DNA from: Candidatus Didemnitutus sp.
GTDB taxonomy: Bacteria > Verrucomicrobiota > Verrucomicrobiia > Opitutales > Opitutaceae
Direction of reading: 5' to 3'
Length of the DNA: 64,000 nt
NCBI GenBank assembly: GCA_017991595.1
Contig: JAGOQJ010000006.1
Location: forward strand, 62,001 to 126,000
Translations under genes and position numbers: made by a program
Part shown: positions 20,030 to 30,066 of the stretch, one piece after another
Position numbering within the stretch: the first letter of the stretch is position 1
Layout of the letters: every line of letters begins with the position of its first letter
Notes under the pieces: generated by a model
Told to the model about the DNA's origin: nothing
Database searches by the model: none
The model's input: only the letters and a program-made list of their open reading frames with translations

Positions 20030-21661
20030 TCAGCCCTGCTGCGCGCGGCGGCGCCACGCGACGAGCGCGAGGCCCGCGAGACCGAGGAGCGCGGCGTAGG
20101 TGGCGGGCTCGGGGATGGCGGCGTAGTTCAGATAAACATCCGTGCCCACGACGGAGAGGCTGAAGCTCGAGCCGGCGAGAATCGTATCGAAAAGATCGCC
20201 GGAGGCGTCGGCCCAGTTGGCGGTGGTGAGGGAGAGGTTGCCGAAACCGCTCACGGCGGCGGCGTCATAGATCTTCCACGATTGGTTGGCGGACCAGAAG
20301 GCATCGCTCCAGTCGACGGTGGAACCGGCGCCATTGAAGGAAAGCGCGAGCGAGGTGGAGCCGGCGAAATTCAACGTGTCACCCACAACAACTTGGTCGA
20401 AGATGGCGGTCGGGTCGCCTTGGGTGGACGTGTTGCCGTTAAGTTCCCAGTTGACGCTGGCGCCGGTGTTGTAGGTCAGGTCGCTGGCGAAGGTCTGGAT
20501 GCCGGGGGAGTTGCCGGGGTTGTGGATGCCGGCGATGGTGGCGGCGCCGCCGACGGTGCCGGAGCCTTGGAGCGAAGCGCCGCTGTCAATCTCCAGCGCG
20601 CCAGCGATGGAGCCGGTCAGGTTGAGGGTGCCCGCTTGGACGGAGGTGAGGCCGGTGTAGAGGTTTGCCCCGTTGAGGCGGAGGGTGCCGTCACCCGTCT
20701 TGGTGAGGGACTTGTCGCCGGAGATGGTTTGGTTCCAGACGACGGAGCCGACAACGTTCAGGGTGGAGTTTTGCGCGAGGGTGGTCGTCTTTTCCGCCAA
20801 GGAGGAGATGCTGAGCGTGCCACCCGCGGAGGCATTGAAGAGGGTGACCGTGCCATTCAGGATGATGGGATTATGGATGGTGCGCTCGCTGATGGAGGTG
20901 GTGCCGGAAATCGCGCCGCCGCTCAGGGTGATGGTGCCGGTGCCGAACGGGCCGCTCACCACGGTGGTGCCGCTGCGCTGCGTGCTGGCCGACATCAACA
21001 GGGAACCCTCGCTGAGTTCGAACCCGCCCGAATAGGTGTGGTTTTCGTTCATGCGCAGGGTGCCGGCCCCGGTCTTGGCCAAGCCGCCGGTGCCGGTGAT
21101 GACCGCGCCGGGGGCGTTGGCCGATCCCTCGGAGAAAAGGACGATGGAGGTGTCCCGGACATCGATCGTGCCGGTGCCGCTGAAGTTGAGATTCACGGTC
21201 AGCGAGGGCAGGGGTGTGGCTGTGCTGTTGCCGCTCAAACTCGCCGAACGAAACGAGGCATTGGTGTTGTTTGAGGCGGTGATGATGGTCCCGGCGGTGC
21301 CGAAGGTCAGCACGCGGGCGGCCGTGCTGTTGGTTGCGGTGGTGGAGACGATGCGGAGACCAATACTGCCGTAGCGGGCGGCGGCGTTGTCGAAGATGAA
21401 GGAGCGCACGGTGTGGTTAGCGCCCATCAGCAGCGTAGGGATCGTGTTAGCGCTAGCGGGATTGTTCGCGATGTAGAGGTCGCTGGTCGCGGTCGGAGCT
21501 GAGTTTTCCGCCCAATTGGTCGCGGTAGCTAGGCTGGTGCCCGTGCCGGATGCTCCGCCTGTCCATGTTAGCTGCTGGGCCGACAGGGAGGCGCTGGCGA
21601 CGAGAGCCATGCCCAGAAGGAGGGCAGCGCGGCGGAGGGATACGGGGTAAGTTGGGTTCAT
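20030..21661 (-). CDS. PEP-CTERM protein with autotransporter-associated beta-strand repeats (array gene 1)
   Basis: 543 residues from ATG at 21661 (a GTG 12 nt upstream is possible). Signal peptide 1-29 ending SLSAQ, then a beta-helix made of PATR-type repeats, e.g. GTGGLAKTGAGTLRMNENHT and GDKSLTKTGDGTLRLNGANL. A conserved pre-C-terminal block (HNPGNSPGIQTF, NWELNGN, FWSANQSWKIYDAA) precedes the sorting signal IPEPATYAALLGLAGLALVAWRRR. It is exported, presumably processed by an exosortase, and surface- or matrix-associated. Shortest of four tandem paralogues. A promoter module lies at 21729-21792 and a terminator at 19972. No beta-barrel domain is present, so it is not a true autotransporter. 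Confidence 0.88.
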   Translation of the reverse strand: MNPTYPVSLRRAALLLGMALVASASLSAQQLTWTGGASGTGTSLATATNWAENSAPTATSDLYIANNPASANTIPTLLMGANHTVRSFIFDNAAARYGSIGLRIVSTTATNSTAARVLTFGTAGTIITASNNTNASFRSASLSGNSTATPLPSLTVNLNFSGTGTIDVRDTSIVLFSEGSANAPGAVITGTGGLAKTGAGTLRMNENHTYSGGFELSEGSLLMSASTQRSGTTVVSGPFGTGTITLSGGAISGTTSISERTIHNPIILNGTVTLFNASAGGTLSISSLAEKTTTLAQNSTLNVVGSVVWNQTISGDKSLTKTGDGTLRLNGANLYTGLTSVQAGTLNLTGSIAGALEIDSGASLQGSGTVGGAATIAGIHNPGNSPGIQTFASDLTYNTGASVNWELNGNTSTQGDPTAIFDQVVVGDTLNFAGSTSLALSFNGAGSTVDWSDAFWSANQSWKIYDAAAVSGFGNLSLTTANWADASGDLFDTILAGSSFSLSVVGTDVYLNYAAIPEPATYAALLGLAGLALVAWRRRAQQG

Positions 21662-21728
21662 GAGGTGTGACACGGTTATGCTTCAGGGCGGTGAGCGTTG
21701 GTAGGGAGGGGTAGATAACCGCGTGCTC

Positions 21729-21792
21729 ACTATAGCGGGACTGGAAAGGGCCGAAAAGGGGCGGGGGTTACGCCGAGCTTGGCGTAGGGATA
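21729..21792 (-). promoter_or_regulatory. Array promoter module of gene 1
   Basis: Minus-strand -10 TATAGT (21734-21729). At the same distance as in the other modules (49 nt) lies a degenerate site, GTAT-CC-CTAC on the minus strand (21783-21792). The proximal N8 site is not recognisable. No TTGACA-like -35. The weakest member of the set. Confidence 0.5.
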
Positions 21793-21862
21793 CGACCTGA
21801 GGCCGGCATGGCTCGCGGTGATGGCCACGAGGGAGCCTCGCTTCGCTGGCTACTCTGGGGAT

Positions 21863-21890
21863 AAAAAAAGAGCCGCACGAGGGCGGCTCT
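21863..21890 (-). terminator. Rho-independent terminator of the 21918-24368 gene
   Basis: AGAGCCGC / GCGGCTCT stem with a short loop, followed on the minus strand by TTTTTTT. Lies 28 nt after the stop codon. Confidence 0.9.
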
Positions 21891-21917
21891 CAGAGTGAGA
21901 AGGGAGGCGAGCGCGGA

Positions 21918-24368
21918 TTAAATGTGCTGCCCTTGACGTCGGCGTCGGATTGCGAGCGCGAGGATGGCGGCCCCGAGGAGGGCCGCGGCCGTGGCGGGCT
22001 CGGGGATGGGGGCGGCGTAGTTCAGGAAGACGTCGTTGCCGGCTTGCGAGAGGGAGAAGCCGGCGCCGGCGAGGACGGTGTCGAAGAGGTTGCCGGAGCC
22101 GTCGGCCCAGTTGCTGGTGACGAGGCTGAGGTTGCCAAAATTAGAGACGCTGGCGGAGTCGTAGATCTTCCAGCTGCGGTTGGCGTCCCAGAAGGCGTCG
22201 TTCCAATTCACGCCGGAGCCGGCGCCGTTGAAGGAGAGGGCGAGCGAGGTGGAGCCGGAGAAATCGAGGGTGCCAGCAACGTTGATCTGGTCGTAAACGG
22301 CGGTGGGGTCGCCTTGGGTGGCGGTGTTGGCGGTGAGCTCCCAGTTGACGGTGGCATCGGCCTGGTAAGTGAGGTTGTTGCCGAACGATTGGATGCCGGG
22401 CGAGCTGCCGGGGCTGTGGGTGCCGGCGATGGAGACGGCTCCGTCGAGGTATCCCGAGCCGGAGAGATCGGCGCCGGCTTCGACGGTGACGGGACCGTTC
22501 AAGGTCCCTTCGACGCGCAGGCCGCCGGCACTGACAGTGGTGCCTCCGCTGTAGTTGAGGCCGTAGTTGGTGAGGGTGAGGACGCCGGTGCCGATCTTCG
22601 TGAGCGAACCGGTGCCGGTGATATTGCCGGAGTAGGTGTCGTTGCTCGTTTGGTTGAAGATCACGGCGGCGTTGTTGGTGATGTCGCCGGGAATGGTGGC
22701 GCTGGAGACGGCGAGGGTGCCGGCGGCAACGGTGGTGCCTCCACTGTAGGTGTTGGTGGCGTTGAGGGTGAGGGTGCCGGTGCCTGTCTTGGTGAGTGAG
22801 CCGGACTGATCCTCGTAGTCCATGATGGCGCCGTTGATGCTGACGCCGCTGGAGGTGACGTCGAAGGTGGCTCCGTTGGCGCCGAGCGAGTAGGTGCGAT
22901 TGTTGCCGGAGGCGGTGGTGCCGGTGAAGCGGAGCGTGGCGTTATCTATGATGGTGGTGCGGCTGAGGGTGTTCGCTCCGAGGTTGCCGGGGGCGTCGAC
23001 GGAGACGGTGCCGGCGAGAATGGCGAGGTTGCCGGTGAAGTTGGAGTTCGAGTCAGTGATGGTAAGGGTGCCGGCTCCTGTCTTGGTGAGGTTGCCGGAG
23101 CCGGAGATGACCTGCTGCCAGGAGAGGGTGACGCCGGTGTTGTCGCCGCCGACGTTGAGAGTGGAATCCGCGGCGACCGTGGTGGTGCCGCCGCCGAGAG
23201 CGGAGATGAAGTGCGTCACCGGGGTCGAGTTGTTGGTATACATCGCGACGGTGCCGTTCAGCGTGATGCTGTTGTGGATCGTGCGATTCGTGCCGGTGCT
23301 GAGGATCGCGCCGCCGGAGAGCGTGACCGTGCCGACGCCGAACGGCCCGTTGGTGACCGAGCCGCCGCTGGCGACCGTGGAGTTGGAGGTGAGCACGTTG
23401 CCGGAGACGAGTTCGAACCCGCCGGAGTAGGTGCTGGCGGCCATGCTTGAGTTGAGGGCGAGATTGCCGGTGCCGGATTTGGTGAGCTTGAAAGCGCCGG
23501 AGAGCGACTGGTTCAGGTTGACGTTGCTGGCGGTGACGAGGTGCGAGTCGGAGACGAGGGTGGCGGTGCCGGTCTGGAAAAGGAGGAGGCCGGTGTTGGT
23601 GGCGTTGCCGAGGGTGACGGTGCCGTTGAACTGCACGCTGTTGTCGATCGCGCGGGAGGAGGTGGTGGACGAGGAGAGGGTGCCGCCGGTGAGGCGCAGG
23701 GTGCCGGTGCCGAAGGCGCCGTTCACGCCGGCGGTGCCGTTGGCATTGAGGAGGATCGTGCCGGACTGCAGGTCGAACCCGCCGGTGAAATTGTTCGTGA
23801 CAGCCAGGCGAAGCGTGCCGGAGCCAGACTTGGCGAGGCCGCCGGTGCCGGTGATGGCGAAGGTGGTGTTGGTCGGGTTGACGTTCATGTTCAACGTGGA
23901 CGTGCCGTCGACGTTGATGGTGCCGTTGCCGGCGTAGTTGAGATTGATGAGGAGCGAGGGAGCCGGGCTGGCGGTCGATGCCGTGGTGGTCGTGGTGGCA
24001 CCGATATTCACGTTGGAGTTGACGAGGGTGAAGATCGTCGTGGCGTTGGTGAACGTCATCGTGCCGGAGCGCGTGTCGGTCGTGTTCTGCGCCGCGCCCA
24101 TGCGGACGTAGGAATTGGTGAACGAAAACGAATTTCCCACCACCGTGCCATTGGCGATCATGTTATGGAACGTGCCGGAGGTGCCGACATTCTGGATGGT
24201 GAGGTCGTTGGCCGCCGTGGGGCTGGCGCTGCCTGTCCAAGTCGTGCCGGTGATGGATGAGTTGGTGGAGCCCGACCAAGTCAGCGTTTGGGCGGAGAGC
24301 GTGCTGGCGAGCGCTGCGACAATGCCCAGCGCGAGACCGCGCAGGGCGCGGAGGCGGAAGATTTTCAT
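21918..24368 (-). CDS. PEP-CTERM protein with autotransporter-associated beta-strand repeats (array gene 2)
   Basis: 816 residues from ATG at 24368 (MKIFRLRALRG); the 25 residues in frame before it are Pro-rich and not signal-like. Signal peptide 1-26 ending STLSAQ. About six PATR repeats are readable (GTGGLAKSGSGTLRLAVTNN, GSLTKTGTGTLTLNATNTYS, GSLTKIGTGVLTLTNYGLNY among them). The block HSPGSSPGIQSF ... FWDANRSWKIYDSASVSNFG is nearly identical to that of array gene 1, pointing to recent duplication. Ends IPEPATAAALLGAAILALAIRRRR, a PEP-CTERM signal. Likely a secreted, filament-like surface or matrix protein. Own promoter module at 24430-24496. Confidence 0.9.
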   Translation of the reverse strand: MKIFRLRALRGLALGIVAALASTLSAQTLTWSGSTNSSITGTTWTGSASPTAANDLTIQNVGTSGTFHNMIANGTVVGNSFSFTNSYVRMGAAQNTTDTRSGTMTFTNATTIFTLVNSNVNIGATTTTTASTASPAPSLLINLNYAGNGTINVDGTSTLNMNVNPTNTTFAITGTGGLAKSGSGTLRLAVTNNFTGGFDLQSGTILLNANGTAGVNGAFGTGTLRLTGGTLSSSTTSSRAIDNSVQFNGTVTLGNATNTGLLLFQTGTATLVSDSHLVTASNVNLNQSLSGAFKLTKSGTGNLALNSSMAASTYSGGFELVSGNVLTSNSTVASGGSVTNGPFGVGTVTLSGGAILSTGTNRTIHNSITLNGTVAMYTNNSTPVTHFISALGGGTTTVAADSTLNVGGDNTGVTLSWQQVISGSGNLTKTGAGTLTITDSNSNFTGNLAILAGTVSVDAPGNLGANTLSRTTIIDNATLRFTGTTASGNNRTYSLGANGATFDVTSSGVSINGAIMDYEDQSGSLTKTGTGTLTLNATNTYSGGTTVAAGTLAVSSATIPGDITNNAAVIFNQTSNDTYSGNITGTGSLTKIGTGVLTLTNYGLNYSGGTTVSAGGLRVEGTLNGPVTVEAGADLSGSGYLDGAVSIAGTHSPGSSPGIQSFGNNLTYQADATVNWELTANTATQGDPTAVYDQINVAGTLDFSGSTSLALSFNGAGSGVNWNDAFWDANRSWKIYDSASVSNFGNLSLVTSNWADGSGNLFDTVLAGAGFSLSQAGNDVFLNYAAPIPEPATAAALLGAAILALAIRRRRQGQHI

Positions 24369-24429
24369 GAGGGGTAGAAGAGAGACCGGGGAGGAGTGGA
24401 CCGGTGCGACGGGAGGGGGCCGTGCGCGC

Positions 24430-24496
24430 ATTATAGTGTCCACGGGGACTTCACCCTAGGGCCAGACCTACGTTGGCGGCGGTGTAGTTCTACGCA
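24430..24496 (-). promoter_or_regulatory. Array promoter module of gene 2
   Basis: Minus-strand -10 TATAAT (24435-24430). Proximal site CTAG-N8-CTAC at 24456-24471, distal site GTAG-TT-CTAC at 24484-24493 flanked by GCA. Offsets from the -10 are 21 and 49 nt. No TTGACA at the -35 position, where the proximal half-site falls. Confidence 0.75.
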
Positions 24497-24587
24497 GGGC
24501 AATGCCGGACATTATCCGGCAGAAAATCGGCCATCATCCTTTCGGCCTCGACTATTATTTGATGAGCCCGTGAGCCGGTCGGGCACG

Positions 24588-24615
24588 AAAAAGGCGGACC
24601 GTGCGAGGGTCCGCC
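24588..24615 (-). terminator. Rho-independent terminator of the 24641-26836 gene
   Basis: GGCGGACC / GGGTCCGCC stem followed on the minus strand by TTTTT. Stem identical to the terminator at 19978-19999, which suggests that whole transcription units were duplicated. Confidence 0.9.
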
Positions 24616-24640
24616 GAGGAGTGGTGGGATGCGGGCGGGG

Positions 24641-26836
24641 TTAGTCGCGTCGAGCGATTGACCGGCGGCGCCAGGCGACGAGGGCGAGGGCGGCGGCGCC
24701 CAGCAGGGCGGCGGTGGTGCCGGGCTCGGGGATGGCGGCGGTGTAGTTCAGGTAGATGTCGTTGCCGTTGACACTGAGGCCAAAGGTGGAGCCGGCAAGG
24801 ATGGCGGAGAAGAGATCGCCCTGGGCGTCGAGCCAGTCAGCGATGGTCAGCGAGAGGTTCTCGGAGTTGGTGAGCGCGGCGGCGTCGTAGAGTTTCCAAC
24901 TGTGGTCCTCGAGCCAGAAGGAGTGGCTCCAATCGACGGCGGAGCCGGCGAAATCGAGGCTGAGGAGAGTGGCGCCAGCGAAGTCGAGGGTGCCGCCGAC
25001 AATCACCTGATCGAAGTTGCCGGCGGTGGTGGTGTCGGCAGCGAGTTCCCAGTCGACGGTGGCGCCGGTGTTGTAGGTCAGGTCGCCCGCGAAGGTCTGG
25101 GTGCCGGGGGAGTTGCCGGGGCGGTGTGCGCCGGAGATGGCGGCGTTGCCGTGGATGGTGCCCACGCCGGACAGAACGGTGCCGGCGGCGGTGTCGAGGG
25201 CGCCGGCGAGGCTGCCGTCGATGGCGAGCCCGCCTTCGGTGAGCGAGGTGAGTCCGGTGTGGGTGTTGGTGCCGGAGAGAGTGACGGTGCCGGCGCCGGT
25301 CTTGGTGAGGGTGCCGCTGCCGGAAATCGCGCCGGCGTAGGTGCCGTTCGTTTCCTGACTGAAGACGAGGGCGGCGTGGTTAGTGATGGCGCCCTGGAGG
25401 CCGTCCGTGGTGCCGCGGAGGGTGCCGGCGGAGACCGTGGTGCCACCGGTGTAGGAGTTGAGGCCGTTGAGCGTGAGAGTGGCGCTGCCTTCCTTCGTCA
25501 GGCTGAAGCCGCCGGTGATGTTCTGGTTCCAGTTGAAGGTGGTGGCGGTCGAGTTGGCGAGGGTGACGATGGTGCTGTTTTTCAGCAGGGTGGTTTCGGA
25601 GCCCCATGCCGTGGAGACGGTCAGGGCGCTGCTGGCCGTGAGTTCGCCGAGGGTGATCGTGCCGTTGAGTGCGATCGGATTGTAGAGGGTGCGGTTGCCG
25701 CTGTTGGCGGCGTTGTTGTTGCTGCTGGCCAGGAAGCCACCCGAGAGCGTGAGCGTGCCGGTGCCGAAGGCGGAGGAGAGCGTGCCGGTGCTGTTGCCCG
25801 AGCTCGTGAAGCGCACGCTGCCTTCCTTCAGCTCAAAGCCACCTTCGTAGGTGCTGGTGCTGCTGGTGCCGTTGAGGCCGAGCGTGCCGTCGCCGGCCTT
25901 GGTCAGGGAGCCGAGGCCGTGAATGGGCTGCGCCCAATTGGCGTTGGCACCGACGGCGATCTGCAGGGTGGTGTTACCGGAGAGGCTGGTGGTCTGGGTG
26001 CCGGCGTCGGAGATGATGATGGTGCCCGTCGTGGCGGAGCCGAGCGTGATGGTGCCATTGTTCAACTGCACCGGGTTGGTGAAGTTGCGGTTGCTGGTGG
26101 TGGACGAGATGATGGCGCCGCCATTCAGGGTGAGAATGCCGGTGCCGAAGACGCCCTGCGTGCCAACCGCGGTGCTGTTGCCGGTGGCCTCGACGGTGCC
26201 CGCATTCAGCGTGAATCCGCCGCCATAGGTGTGATTGGCGGAAAGACGGATGTTACCGTCGCCCGTCTTGATCAAGCCGCCCGTGCCGGCGATGGAGGCA
26301 CCGCTGCCGGTGACGATGAGTTGCGAGGTGCTGTCGATGTTGATGGTGCCGTTGCCGGTGTAGCCGAGATTGAGCGTCATCGTGGGCGTGCCGGGGTTGG
26401 TGCCCAGCGTCGAGGCGTTGACGTTCAGGTTCATGCCGTTCGTGAGCGTGATGATCGATACCTCCGCCGTGCCGAAGGTGATCGTCCGGGCGACGGTGCT
26501 GTTGGCGACCGTCGTGGCCACAAAGCGAAGGACGTTCGCGGTGTTGTTCAAGACCTGGGCGGTGTTGTCCATGGCGAGCGAGCGGATGGTGTAATTGCCA
26601 CCCGGGATCATGCTAGTCATGGCCGCATTGTCGCTCGTGGTCTGCAGCACGAGGTCCCACGTGGTGCCCGTGTTGAGGGCCGTGGAGCCGGTCCAGTTGG
26701 AACTGGTGGTCCAATTCCCACTGCCACCGGGCCCGACCCAGTTGAGCGTTTGAGCGGACAGGGTGGGGAGGAAGGAGAAGGCGGTGCCGGCCAAAATGGC
26801 GGCACAGCGTAATGCGGACAGGCAGTTACGATTCAT
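24641..26836 (-). CDS. PEP-CTERM protein with autotransporter-associated beta-strand repeats (array gene 3)
   Basis: 731 residues from ATG at 26836 (MNRNCLSALRC). Signal peptide 1-29 ending PTLSAQ. PATR repeats include GTGGLIKTGDGNIRLSANHT, GLGSLTKAGDGTLGLNGTSS, GFSLTKEGSATLTLNGLNSY and GSGTLTKTGAGTVTLSGTNT, separated by Ser/Thr/Asn-rich beta strands. The pre-C-terminal block (HRPGNSPGTQTF, VDWELAAD, FWLEDHSWKLYDAAAL) is shared with the other three. Ends IPEPGTTAALLGAAALALVAWRRR. Exported, exosortase-type processing expected. Own promoter module 70 nt upstream. Confidence 0.9.
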   Translation of the reverse strand: MNRNCLSALRCAAILAGTAFSFLPTLSAQTLNWVGPGGSGNWTTSSNWTGSTALNTGTTWDLVLQTTSDNAAMTSMIPGGNYTIRSLAMDNTAQVLNNTANVLRFVATTVANSTVARTITFGTAEVSIITLTNGMNLNVNASTLGTNPGTPTMTLNLGYTGNGTINIDSTSQLIVTGSGASIAGTGGLIKTGDGNIRLSANHTYGGGFTLNAGTVEATGNSTAVGTQGVFGTGILTLNGGAIISSTTSNRNFTNPVQLNNGTITLGSATTGTIIISDAGTQTTSLSGNTTLQIAVGANANWAQPIHGLGSLTKAGDGTLGLNGTSSTSTYEGGFELKEGSVRFTSSGNSTGTLSSAFGTGTLTLSGGFLASSNNNAANSGNRTLYNPIALNGTITLGELTASSALTVSTAWGSETTLLKNSTIVTLANSTATTFNWNQNITGGFSLTKEGSATLTLNGLNSYTGGTTVSAGTLRGTTDGLQGAITNHAALVFSQETNGTYAGAISGSGTLTKTGAGTVTLSGTNTHTGLTSLTEGGLAIDGSLAGALDTAAGTVLSGVGTIHGNAAISGAHRPGNSPGTQTFAGDLTYNTGATVDWELAADTTTAGNFDQVIVGGTLDFAGATLLSLDFAGSAVDWSHSFWLEDHSWKLYDAAALTNSENLSLTIADWLDAQGDLFSAILAGSTFGLSVNGNDIYLNYTAAIPEPGTTAALLGAAALALVAWRRRSIARRD

Positions 26837-26906
26837 AGTGGAAGGGACGGGTGCTGGGGGGGGCGGCGCGAAGGAGCGGTGAGGAGGGGTATGCACCAGC
26901 GCGCCG

Positions 26907-26972
26907 AGTATATCCGCCGCCCTGTGCGCGAGGTAGTGAGGTTACTACGCTGCGGATGGCGTAGAACTACGC
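26907..26972 (-). promoter_or_regulatory. Array promoter module of gene 3
   Basis: Minus-strand -10 TATACT (26912-26907). Proximal site GTAG-N8-CTAC at 26933-26948, distal palindrome GCGTAG-AA-CTACGC at 26959-26972 (core 26961-26970). Offsets 21 and 49 nt, identical to the gene 2 module. No -35 hexamer. Confidence 0.75.
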
Positions 26973-27135
26973 CTTTGGCAGCCGATGGACTCCCTCTGAT
27001 GTGGGGATGTCGGCCTCGTCGAAAGGTTTCATTGGCAGCGCCAACAAGGGAATCGTGTCTTTCGCCGGGTCTTAGCGCAGGAGGATTGAACGTTTGGGGA
27101 GGGGCGTCACGAGCACGCTTGCCGTGACATCCTGT

Positions 27136-27203
27136 GGGGCCGGACCTTCGTCGATTCGCGACGGACAGCGGAAAACATCCGAACCGTATCCCGGTCCGGC
27201 CCC
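27136..27203 (-). terminator. Long stem-loop downstream of array gene 4
   Basis: GGGGCCGGACC (27136-27146) pairs perfectly with GGTCCGGCCCC (27193-27203); a smaller CGTCG/CGACG stem sits inside. It begins 16 nt after the stop codon. No T-run, so a transcript-end structure rather than a classical intrinsic terminator. Confidence 0.55.
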
Positions 27204-27218
27204 CTCAGGGAAGTGGGT

Positions 27219-29747
27219 TTACTGAACCGCGACGGGCTCGACGCGCAGGCGGAAGAACGCGTTCGGAGCGCCGGTTTGCGAGTAGCGGGCGCGCCAAGTG
27301 GCGGTTTCCCCGACCGTGGCGACCGGCTCGTGATCGTTGGCGGCGATCGTGGTCCACTGCTGGAGATTGGTGGACACTTCGACGACGTAGCTCACATCGC
27401 TGCGATTCGCCGGGCGGGTGTAGAGGAAGACCCAGAAGCCGTTCTCGGTGGACGTCGCGGGCACCGCCGTCGGGCTGGCGGCACGCGGATCGAGGCCGAG
27501 GGCGTATTCGAGGAGATTGGCGAGGCCGTCGCGGTCAGGATCGGCGAGGGCACCGCTCACGGTCGGGAGGTTGAGCTCTTCGGTGGTGAAATACTCCGCG
27601 AGCCACGTGGTGTAAGGATCGGCGATCACAGGTGCGGGCGTGAAGTGGAGCAACACATCGCCGCCGGATTGGGAGAGGCTGAAGGACGCGCCAGCGAGTG
27701 CACTGTCGAAACTGGCGCCCGTGGAATCGGGCCACGTCGCCGGGCTAAGTTGAAGATTCTGGAAGTTGGAAACCGTGGCGGCGTCGAACACCACCCAGGT
27801 GTGTTCCTCGAGCCAGAAGGCGTTCTTCCAGTCGACGGTCGAGCCGGTGCCAGCAAAGGCCGGCGTGAGCGTGACGGGGCCGGCGAAATCGAGCGTGCCG
27901 GCGACGATCACGTGATCGGAGTCGGCGCCGGCGGTGGAGTGGGCGGCGAGGTCCCAGCCGATCGTGGAGCCGGCGGCGTAGGTCAGGTTGGCGCCGAAGG
28001 TCTGCGTGCCCGCCGAGTTGCCGGGCGTGTGCGTGCCGGCGACGGTCGCATGGCCGCCAATGGTGCCGGAGCCGGCGAGGGTGGTGGTCGCGGCGGTGTC
28101 GAGCGCGCCGGGGATGCTGCCGTCGATGACGAGGGTGCCTTCGGTGAGGGAAGTGAGGCCGGTGTAGGTGTGCGTGCCGGAGAGCGTGAGCGCGGCGGTG
28201 CCTTGCTTGGTGACGGTGCCGTTGCCGGAGATGACGCCGGCGTAGGTGCCGCCGGTGTCCTCATTGAAGATCAGCGCGGCATGGTTGACGACGTCGCCCG
28301 TGATCGACTCCGCATCGCCGCGCAGGATGCCCTCGCTGACAGTCGTGTCGCCGGTGTAGGTGTTGATGCCGGACAGTGTCAGCATCGCGGGTCCGGTTTT
28401 GGTAAGGCCGAAATTGCCCGAGATATTTTGACTCCAAGTGATATTCGCGCCTGGCGTGTTGATGGTCGACGGCGCAATCAGGGTAGTCGCGCTGCCCCAG
28501 AGCGCGGAAACAAAGATTCCGCTTTCGGCGGCCGCCTCGCTGAGGGCAATCGTTCCGTTCAGCGCGATCGGGTTGTAGAGCGTGCGGTTGCCACCACCGG
28601 CGGTCGTGTTGGAACTCATGATCGCGCCGCCGCTGAGAGTGAGCGTGCCAGTGCCGAAGCCCGAAGACTTCGGGTCCACCGTGCCGTTGCTGCCGGAGCT
28701 ATTGAGGACGACGTTGCCTTCCTTGAGCTCGAATCCGCCGGCGTAAGTGCTGGCCGCGGCGACGATGCCAAAGCCCAAGTTGCCGGTGCCGGTTTTCGTG
28801 ATGACGGCATCGCTGATGATCGTTTGATTCCAGAAGCTCGCGCCCGCGACGTTGATCGTGGTGTTGGCGAGGACGGTGATGCTGCTGGTCGGAATACTGT
28901 TGGGAAAATTGATGTTTCCGGAGGTCGCACTTGCGCCGAACGTGATCGTGCCGCCCCCGAAGACGGTTGAGCTGAGAATCTGACGGGAGGCCGTGCTGTT
29001 CGACGTGACCGTGCCGTTGTTCAGGCGGAGTGTGCCGAGGCCGAACGCGCTCGAGGTGAGGTCCGTCGTCGTGTTCGTGCCGTTGGTCGTGATGATAACG
29101 GTGCCTTCGTCGAGGATGAAGCCGCCGCTGTAGGTGTGATTGCCGTTCAGACGCAGGGTGCCGGGGCCGATTTTCTGCAGGCCGCCCGTGCCGGTGATGA
29201 CCGCACCGGGGACGTTGTTCGAGCCGTCCGCGATCAACACGATCGAGGTGTCGCGCACGTCGATCACGCCCATGCCGGAGTAGTTCAGGAACAGGGTCAG
29301 TGAGGGCAGCGGGTCGGCGGTGCTGCTGCCCGAGATGCTGCCGGAACGGAAAGACGCGTTGGCGTTGTTGGTCGCTGTGATAAGAGTGCCCGCCGTGTCG
29401 AAGGAGAGGATGCGGGCGGTGCTGGAGCTGGCGCTCGTCGTCGAGACGATGCGCAGGCCGTTGGTGGCGCTGTATTGCGCGGTCGCGTTGTTGAAAATGA
29501 AGGAGCGAACCGAGTAGTTGGCGCCGACCAGCAGGGTTGGGATCGAGGTATTAACCGTGCTCGCAATGTAGAGATCGGCCGTGGCGGTGGGCGCGGTGCC
29601 TTCCTGCCAGTTGGAACCGGTGGAAAGGATGTTGCCCTTGCCGTCGTTGCCGCCGGTCCACGTAAGTTGCTGGGCAAAAAGAGAGGGAACGAAAGCGGCG
29701 ACGGCGAGGAGCGCGACGCCACGGACGATGGCACGTGTGCGATTCAT
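27219..29747 (-). CDS. Autotransporter-repeat surface protein without PEP-CTERM (array gene 4)
   Basis: 842 residues from ATG at 29747 (MNRTRAIVRG; another ATG lies 9 nt upstream). Signal peptide 1-26 ending PSLFAQ. PATR repeats as in its neighbours (GTGGLQKIGPGTLRLNGNHT, GNFGLTKTGPAMLTLSGINT), and the same pre-C-terminal block (HTPGNSAGTQTF, FWLEEHTWVVFDAATVSNFQ). Instead of a PEP-CTERM tail it ends with about 130 residues of the verrucomicrobial C-terminal module: DPDRDGLANLLEYALGLDP, VSYVVEVSTNLQQWTTI, and a final FFRLRVEPVAVQ. That module also ends the 15318-18026 protein. It may be a different sorting or anchoring device (inference). Own promoter module at 29798-29862. Confidence 0.88.
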   Translation of the reverse strand: MNRTRAIVRGVALLAVAAFVPSLFAQQLTWTGGNDGKGNILSTGSNWQEGTAPTATADLYIASTVNTSIPTLLVGANYSVRSFIFNNATAQYSATNGLRIVSTTSASSSTARILSFDTAGTLITATNNANASFRSGSISGSSTADPLPSLTLFLNYSGMGVIDVRDTSIVLIADGSNNVPGAVITGTGGLQKIGPGTLRLNGNHTYSGGFILDEGTVIITTNGTNTTTDLTSSAFGLGTLRLNNGTVTSNSTASRQILSSTVFGGGTITFGASATSGNINFPNSIPTSSITVLANTTINVAGASFWNQTIISDAVITKTGTGNLGFGIVAAASTYAGGFELKEGNVVLNSSGSNGTVDPKSSGFGTGTLTLSGGAIMSSNTTAGGGNRTLYNPIALNGTIALSEAAAESGIFVSALWGSATTLIAPSTINTPGANITWSQNISGNFGLTKTGPAMLTLSGINTYTGDTTVSEGILRGDAESITGDVVNHAALIFNEDTGGTYAGVISGNGTVTKQGTAALTLSGTHTYTGLTSLTEGTLVIDGSIPGALDTAATTTLAGSGTIGGHATVAGTHTPGNSAGTQTFGANLTYAAGSTIGWDLAAHSTAGADSDHVIVAGTLDFAGPVTLTPAFAGTGSTVDWKNAFWLEEHTWVVFDAATVSNFQNLQLSPATWPDSTGASFDSALAGASFSLSQSGGDVLLHFTPAPVIADPYTTWLAEYFTTEELNLPTVSGALADPDRDGLANLLEYALGLDPRAASPTAVPATSTENGFWVFLYTRPANRSDVSYVVEVSTNLQQWTTIAANDHEPVATVGETATWRARYSQTGAPNAFFRLRVEPVAVQ

Positions 29748-29797
29748 GAGGTGCAAAGAGGTGGAGGGTAACGCGGGCCAAGCCGCGCGGCTTTCGC

Positions 29798-29862
29798 ACT
29801 ATACCTTGCGCTCAGGGTTTCCGACTAGGGATGCGACTACCCGCGCGATTGCGTAGTTCTAC
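29798..29862 (-). promoter_or_regulatory. Array promoter module of gene 4
   Basis: Minus-strand -10 TATAGT (29803-29798). Proximal site CTAG-N8-CTAC at 29825-29840, distal GTAG-TT-CTAC at 29853-29862 preceded by TGC. Offsets from the -10 are 22 and 50 nt, one base more than in modules 2 and 3. Confidence 0.75.
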
Positions 29863-29940
29863 TATCAGGGGCGGCCTGACGAAATGGCCGCCCTTGCGGA
29901 ACGGCCTCCTCTAACCCCGAGGGTGCGACCGGGGTGCTGC

Positions 29941-30006
29941 TTTATAGCGGGCCGCATGCCGCTTGCTAGGGATGGCGCTACTCGTCCACTTGCGTAGAAC
30001 TACGCA
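29941..30006 (-). promoter_or_regulatory. Fifth array promoter module without its own gene
   Basis: Minus-strand -10 TATAAA (29946-29941), CTAG-N8-CTAC at 29966-29981, and the best distal palindrome of all, TGCGTAGAACTACGCA at 29991-30006. Same order and nearly the same spacing (20 and 48 nt) as the others. It would fire toward array gene 4 through about 70 nt of hairpin-rich DNA into that gene's own module. Confidence 0.65.
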
Positions 30007-30066
30007 TCTTGGGCGGCCGGCATAAATTTGCTCGAAACGGAAGGCGGGGCGCGATGGAGCTGGAGG

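Follow-up and report, generated by a model that had tools for sequence, protein, structure and literature searches.

A two-site promoter module before tandem PATR surface-protein genes of an Opitutaceae bacterium and its candidate NarL/FixJ-type response regulator

Introduction

Several described regulators resemble parts of the system reported here. FixJ acts on fixK through two regions, (-69,-44) and (-57,-31), and its sites, as defined by SELEX, are GTAGTTTCCC and GTAMGTAG (PMC4999443). DevR uses a strong primary and an adjacent weak secondary site, a pair that can drive a promoter, and the start-proximal site overlaps the -35 position (PMC3029386). For PEP-CTERM genes, control by a two-component system, PrsK/PrsR, has been proposed, in which PrsR, a Fis-type regulator, is thought to act with sigma-54 (RpoN) (PMC9850573). 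Our literature searches returned no described regulator of PATR/PEP-CTERM surface proteins in Verrucomicrobiota, and no paper on the system analysed below.

Here we analysed a 64,000-nt stretch of DNA (the window) from the 2.88-Mb metagenome-assembled genome of an uncultured water bacterium, a member of the Opitutaceae of the Candidatus Didemnitutus group. This genome is labelled G000; the other Gnnn labels denote genomes of the family, of which 252 were surveyed. An initial annotation of the window had proposed that four tandem surface-protein genes share a promoter with two dyads, bound by a single regulator.

Results

The four genes are tandem paralogues that encode PATR-repeat proteins, two of which pass the Pfam cut-off for PEP-CTERM (Table 1). 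Five minus-strand modules had been described before them, with a far dyad in all five, degenerate in the first, and a near dyad clear in four; all five were found in their places, four of them exact. The number of modules exceeds that of the genes because gene 4 bears two in tandem. On the minus strand, modules 2-5 have the common form GTAG-N2-CTAC-N12-GTAG-N8-CTA(G/C)-N19..21-TATAxx, the near site being separated from the -10 box by N20, N20, N21 and N19, respectively. The far site of module 5 sits within a perfect 14-mer, GCGTAGTTCTACGC (29992-30005). Module 1, which reads GTAT-CC-CTAC-N12-GTAA-N8-CCTT-N21-TATAGT, is degenerate in both sites and retains every spacing, so that it is somewhat better preserved than the initial annotation had suggested. 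It was matched at E=1.1e-8 by R2, a profile of 24 modules of which module 1 is itself one. Its counterpart in G003 (L042:8464) has identical degenerate letters, and the degenerate variant is therefore itself conserved.

Table 1. Positions in the window of the surface-protein genes and of their promoter modules.
Feature	Position	Strand	Far site	Near site	-10 box	Description	Length (aa)	Pfam
Gene 1	20030..21661	-				PATR repeats, PEP-CTERM	543	PF12951, PF07589
Module 1	21729..21793	-	GTAT-CC-CTAC, 21784-21793	GTAA..CCTT, 21756-21771	TATAGT, 21729-21734	upstream of gene 1; degenerate, in register		
Gene 2	21918..24368	-				PATR-repeat surface protein	816	PF12951
Module 2	24430..24493	-	GTAGAACTAC, 24484-24493	GTAG-N8-CTAG, 24456-24471	TATAAT, 24430-24435			
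Gene 3	24641..26836	-				PATR repeats, PEP-CTERM	731	PF12951, PF07589
Module 3	26907..26970	-	GTAGTTCTAC, 26961-26970	GTAG-N8-CTAC, 26933-26948	TATACT, 26907-26912			
Gene 4	27219..29747	-				PATR-repeat surface protein	842	PF12951
Module 4	29798..29862	-	GTAGAACTAC, 29853-29862	GTAG-N8-CTAG, 29825-29840	TATAGT, 29798-29803	proximal promoter of gene 4		
Module 5	29941..30003	-	GTAGTTCTAC, 29994-30003	GTAG-N8-CTAG, 29966-29981	TATAAA, 29941-29946	distal promoter of gene 4		

As the initial annotation had noted, TTGACA is absent from the five promoters and the near half-site takes its place: CTAG lies approximately where a -35 hexamer would be expected, 19-21 nt upstream of the -10 box. A site over the -35 position, together with the lack of a -35 consensus, is the arrangement expected of an activator-dependent sigma-70 promoter.

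The tandem modules of gene 4 (window 29741-30015) are weakly alike outside the motif, and G003 has a single module there, which resembles module 5. The palindrome of module 5 (window 29992-30031, +), which is followed by a CATAAA box, also lies directly upstream of a divergent TPR-protein ORF at 30028 (+); it could serve both directions, like the palindrome at the regulator locus described below.

We then considered how specific the module is. The window contains no further GTAG-N2-CTAC and no further full module. Exact matches in the 2.88-Mb genome, rather than being scattered at random, number four and all fall in this cluster; allowing up to three mismatches at the fixed spacing adds only three places, each with three mismatches. 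A position weight matrix was built from the four exact modules plus three from relatives, with module 1 excluded. It scored the exact modules at 46-55 and module 1 at 25.6, against at most ~10 for any of ten first-order shuffled 64-kb sequences. A plasmid search with the promoter DNA gave no match. Raw counts of the shorter motifs alone were not taken as evidence, because controls were as frequent or commoner (the reversed half-palindrome equalled the motif in total frequency, and the palindrome with two mismatches was rarer than its control in this genome); position, spacing and co-occurrence with the regulator were used instead. Additional sites of the 14-bp palindrome type, GCGTAGNNCTACGC, with one mismatch occur in the genome three times within coding sequence and once between genes (C6:94283; L120), where GCGTAGTTATACGC stands upstream of a membrane-protein gene. 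The intergenic copy is possibly a further site, and was left out of the counts because it has no convincing -10 box.

Since the genes are tandem paralogues, the modules might be alike merely through recent joint copying of gene and promoter, with no regulation implied. The spacers of modules 2-5, however, are 25-42% identical, at or near chance, against 94-100% at the motif letters, which argues for selection and not recent copying, and the same letters precede unrelated genes in other genera. Recent duplication of genes with their promoters was rejected on the divergence of the spacers, and we give this explanation next to no weight.

The regulator had been guessed to be of the LuxR/NarL type, with no such gene in the window. 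When the relatives were searched with the half-palindrome GTAGNNCTACGCCAT, many matches fell directly upstream of a response-regulator gene. Its orthologue here indeed lies outside the window, at G000:C16:136824-137477, and is 85% identical to the G009 protein. The regulator is 100% identical in a Candidatus Didemnitutus MAG, and the matches ranking next likewise come from Didemnitutus/Opitutaceae, which places the window in the Opitutaceae (Verrucomicrobiota) and probably in that genus. The G009 orthologue has an N-terminal receiver domain (PF00072, E=9.9e-18) and a C-terminal LuxR/GerE helix-turn-helix (PF00196, E=1.6e-16). Among solved structures the closest to the regulator's helix-turn-helix is that of FixJ (1x3u), with which it has the S-RTVE-HRA helix in common. 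The promoter of the regulator gene in this genome contains GCGTAATTCTACGC, the palindrome with one mismatch, and the near CTAG element is absent on the regulator side. On the divergent side, the palindrome, N25, CTAG, N20 and TACAAT make up the genome's one further module, which precedes a gene for a TonB receptor, followed by those for gamma-glutamyltranspeptidase and a second TonB receptor. A LuxR-type gene near other matches, which the initial annotation had suggested looking for, is thus present, in the form of a NarL/FixJ-type response-regulator gene adjoining this module.

The same arrangement recurs in the family. Of 30 orthologues of the regulator, 21 have the palindrome with 0-2 mismatches within the 300 nt upstream, usually 98-119 nt from the VLVDD codons, and one further orthologue has it with three mismatches at the same promoter position; in shuffled sequence, two mismatches are attained in 1.4% of trials. 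G060 carries PATR modules, yet its regulator gene lacks an upstream palindrome. The g44/g41 regulator promoters (L158, L159, L161) read GCGTGGNNTTACGC. In the g44 lineage variant the regulator's own promoter reads GCGTGGCNTTACGC, and g44 regulators have EKHRS in place of EKHRA in the DNA-binding helix; these promoter and helix changes possibly represent covariation.

The regulator orthologue was found in 37 of the 252 genomes. GTAGNNCTACGCCAT occurs in 27 of the 252, and 24 of these 27 have the regulator (p=4e-21). At E<0.01, R2 matched 21 of the 37 regulator-positive genomes and none of 37 regulator-negative genomes picked from the same genera, or, when restricted to non-training genomes, 7 of 23 versus 0 of 37 (p=6e-4). 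R1, a profile of seven modules made before the regulator was known, showed the same trend: of the 6 non-training genomes that it matched at this threshold, 4 are regulator-positive (p=0.003). These Fisher p-values ignore phylogeny and overstate independence because the genomes are related, and the co-occurrence is in part inherent, since the sites include the promoter of the regulator itself. A partial module is present in G029 and G147 though the regulator orthologue is absent from them.

A site in the promoter of a gene is no proof that the product of that gene binds it, and another DNA-binding protein might recognize the palindrome, the response-regulator gene being merely one of its targets. 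Against this, the modules track the presence of the regulator, the palindrome is similarly placed in the regulator promoter over many genera, and the DNA-binding helix of the regulator matches that of FixJ, whose sites begin with GTAG. We regard a different binder as distinctly unlikely, and the proposal of a shared regulon under a dyad-binding regulator of the LuxR/NarL type is well supported by the palindrome in the regulator promoter and by the co-occurrence of modules and regulator.

A gene for a histidine kinase with HisKA, HATPase_c and TPR repeats, and with no PAS match in the domain search, is the convergent neighbour of the regulator gene in 14 of the 20 loci taken from named genomes. 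The kinase of this genome is probably encoded at ~C16:143422-145428, outside the window and 6 kb from the regulator. The G004 and G010 loci yielded no kinase.

To what genes is the module attached in the relatives? R1 matched four modules in G003, all preceding tandem surface-protein genes, and more in G060 and G004. PATR genes preceded by the module architecture are thus found also in G003 and G060; the G004 module lies 3' of a PATR/PEP-CTERM gene but upstream of an unrelated gene. In several genera the far palindrome, the near CTAG and the -10 spacing precede a gene for a secreted alpha/beta-hydrolase-like protein, whose name rests on its sequence because Pfam gave no match. The module is also present in several genomes on the divergent side of the regulator promoter, and in G213 before a symporter gene. 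Genes preceded by the palindrome, though with no clear full module, encode Na+:sulfate/citrate symporters (G025, G298), a TonB receptor (G025), an M14 peptidase (G051) and gamma-glutamyltranspeptidase (G017). The fetched loci held 23 distinct full modules and their reversed sequences none. Among the aligned columns, those of GTAG, CTAC, CTAG, the -10 box and the GC flanks are rich in information; those of the near GTAG are poor in it when targets other than PATR genes are included. Both dyads of the initial annotation are therefore real in the modules, but the near one is far less conserved than the far one when more targets are added.

Such a pattern could also arise if the regulator bound the far palindrome only and CTAG-N20-TANANT were the promoter of an alternative sigma factor, with CTAG as its -35 element. 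Indeed, CTAG at N19-21 from the -10 box is nearly invariant in PATR, hydrolase, symporter and TonB-receptor promoters, and the other near half-site, GTAG, is not retained in promoters of non-PATR genes. The PATR promoters, however, have a good sigma-70 -10 box, their CTAG pairs with GTAG as a dyad, and the only two places in the window that match CTAG-N19..21-TANANT, modules 2 and 4, both have the palindrome. An alternative sigma factor is, in our judgement, unlikely.

The initial annotation had also raised the question of whether matches precede other PATR/PEP-CTERM genes, and here the outcome was negative. Six other PATR ORFs (C7, C8, C12) had no module when the whole genome was searched with R2, and no palindrome with up to two mismatches to GCGTAGNNCTACGC was evident in the upstream stretches fetched for them; in the relatives the targets are mostly transport and hydrolase genes adjoining the regulator. 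Because of the six module-free ORFs we rejected a general PATR/PEP-CTERM promoter; the regulon comprises this cluster and the regulator locus, rather than being PATR-wide. A PATR array distant from the regulator characterizes this genome, G003 and G060.

Discussion

We propose, with a probability of roughly 0.7, that the modules are the target promoters of the TPR-repeat sensor histidine kinase and the NarL/FixJ-type response regulator, which would bind the far and near sites and replace the -35 box. A dimer of the phosphorylated regulator would occupy the strong palindrome, centred at about -66, and help a second dimer onto the weaker GTAG-N8-CTAG, centred at about -41, over the -35 position; the pair would then bring in RNA polymerase of the sigma-70 type at a good -10 box lacking a -35 hexamer. 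The regulator would also control its own gene and the adjacent uptake genes. These positions assume a start 7 nt after the -10 box, which would place the far palindrome at ~-72 to -59 and the near site at ~-48 to -33. Cooperative binding of two dimers in place of the -35 box is proposed because of the FixJ regions and sites at fixK, the FixJ-like domain of the regulator and the two-site precedent of DevR. The far-site assignment is the firm part of this model, occupancy of both sites with replacement of -35 recognition is plausible, and we infer the occupancy of the near site and the sign of regulation. Near-site occupancy is the weakest step because the near site is poorly conserved outside PATR promoters; moreover, the internal spacing of the two sites differs (GTAG-N2-CTAC versus GTAG-N8-CTAG), which is odd for one dimer.

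The overlap of the near site with the -35 position might alternatively reflect repression, with a dimer over -35 blocking the polymerase. The missing -35 consensus, however, makes the promoters look activator-dependent, and a strong upstream palindrome at about -66 would suit activation; repression seems to us quite improbable.

The system proposed here shares with FixLJ/FixJ (Sinorhizobium, Caulobacter) a receiver domain joined to a LuxR-type helix-turn-helix, the S-RTVE-HRA helix, sites that start with GTAG and two upstream regions. It differs in the palindrome, which is 14 bp with a 2-bp centre compared with 16-18 bp for FixJ, and in the targets, which are surface-protein and uptake genes and not those of nitrogen fixation. 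We rejected an assignment as FixJ orthologue, given a kinase with TPR but without PAS, and targets that are PATR, TonB-receptor, symporter and hydrolase genes rather than fixK or nifA. DevR/DosR (Mycobacterium) is likewise a NarL-subfamily regulator with a strong primary site next to a weak secondary one and a start-proximal site that overlaps -35, whereas its site sequence and phylum differ and cooperativity in our case is presumed. In contrast to PrsK/PrsR, the promoters here have sigma-70-type, TATAAT-like -10 boxes at fixed spacing, and the regulator is of the receiver plus LuxR-type class.

Judged from sequence, the regulon would link surface-protein expression to outer-membrane receptors, anion symporters and secreted hydrolases. 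With a candidate regulator and its probable kinase named, and with a profile of the binding sites and defined promoters available, it becomes directly testable how these poorly understood surface proteins are controlled.

Gene 1 and its G003 counterpart have in common promoter module 1 and the signal peptide (MNxTYP..LRRAALL; window 21300-21800; L042:8450-8980). Their mature proteins differ, that of gene 1 being a PATR protein and that of G003 a 282-aa PEP-CTERM protein, which suggests that mature proteins were exchanged behind a conserved promoter-signal cassette. As a tentative and rather doubtful idea, a two-component regulon normally limited to uptake genes beside its regulator may have captured a distant tandem PATR array in a few Opitutaceae, and the array may evolve by swapping mature proteins behind the conserved promoter and signal-peptide cassette.

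Two genomes of genus g18 that lack the orthologue (L049:10146; L055:1627) have GTAG-N2-CTAC-N12-GTAG and then TTGTACCGATGAAAA before the gene of a small lipoprotein; an EF-hand-like protein is encoded further downstream. These sites perhaps belong to a sister system that uses a 43%-identical regulator.
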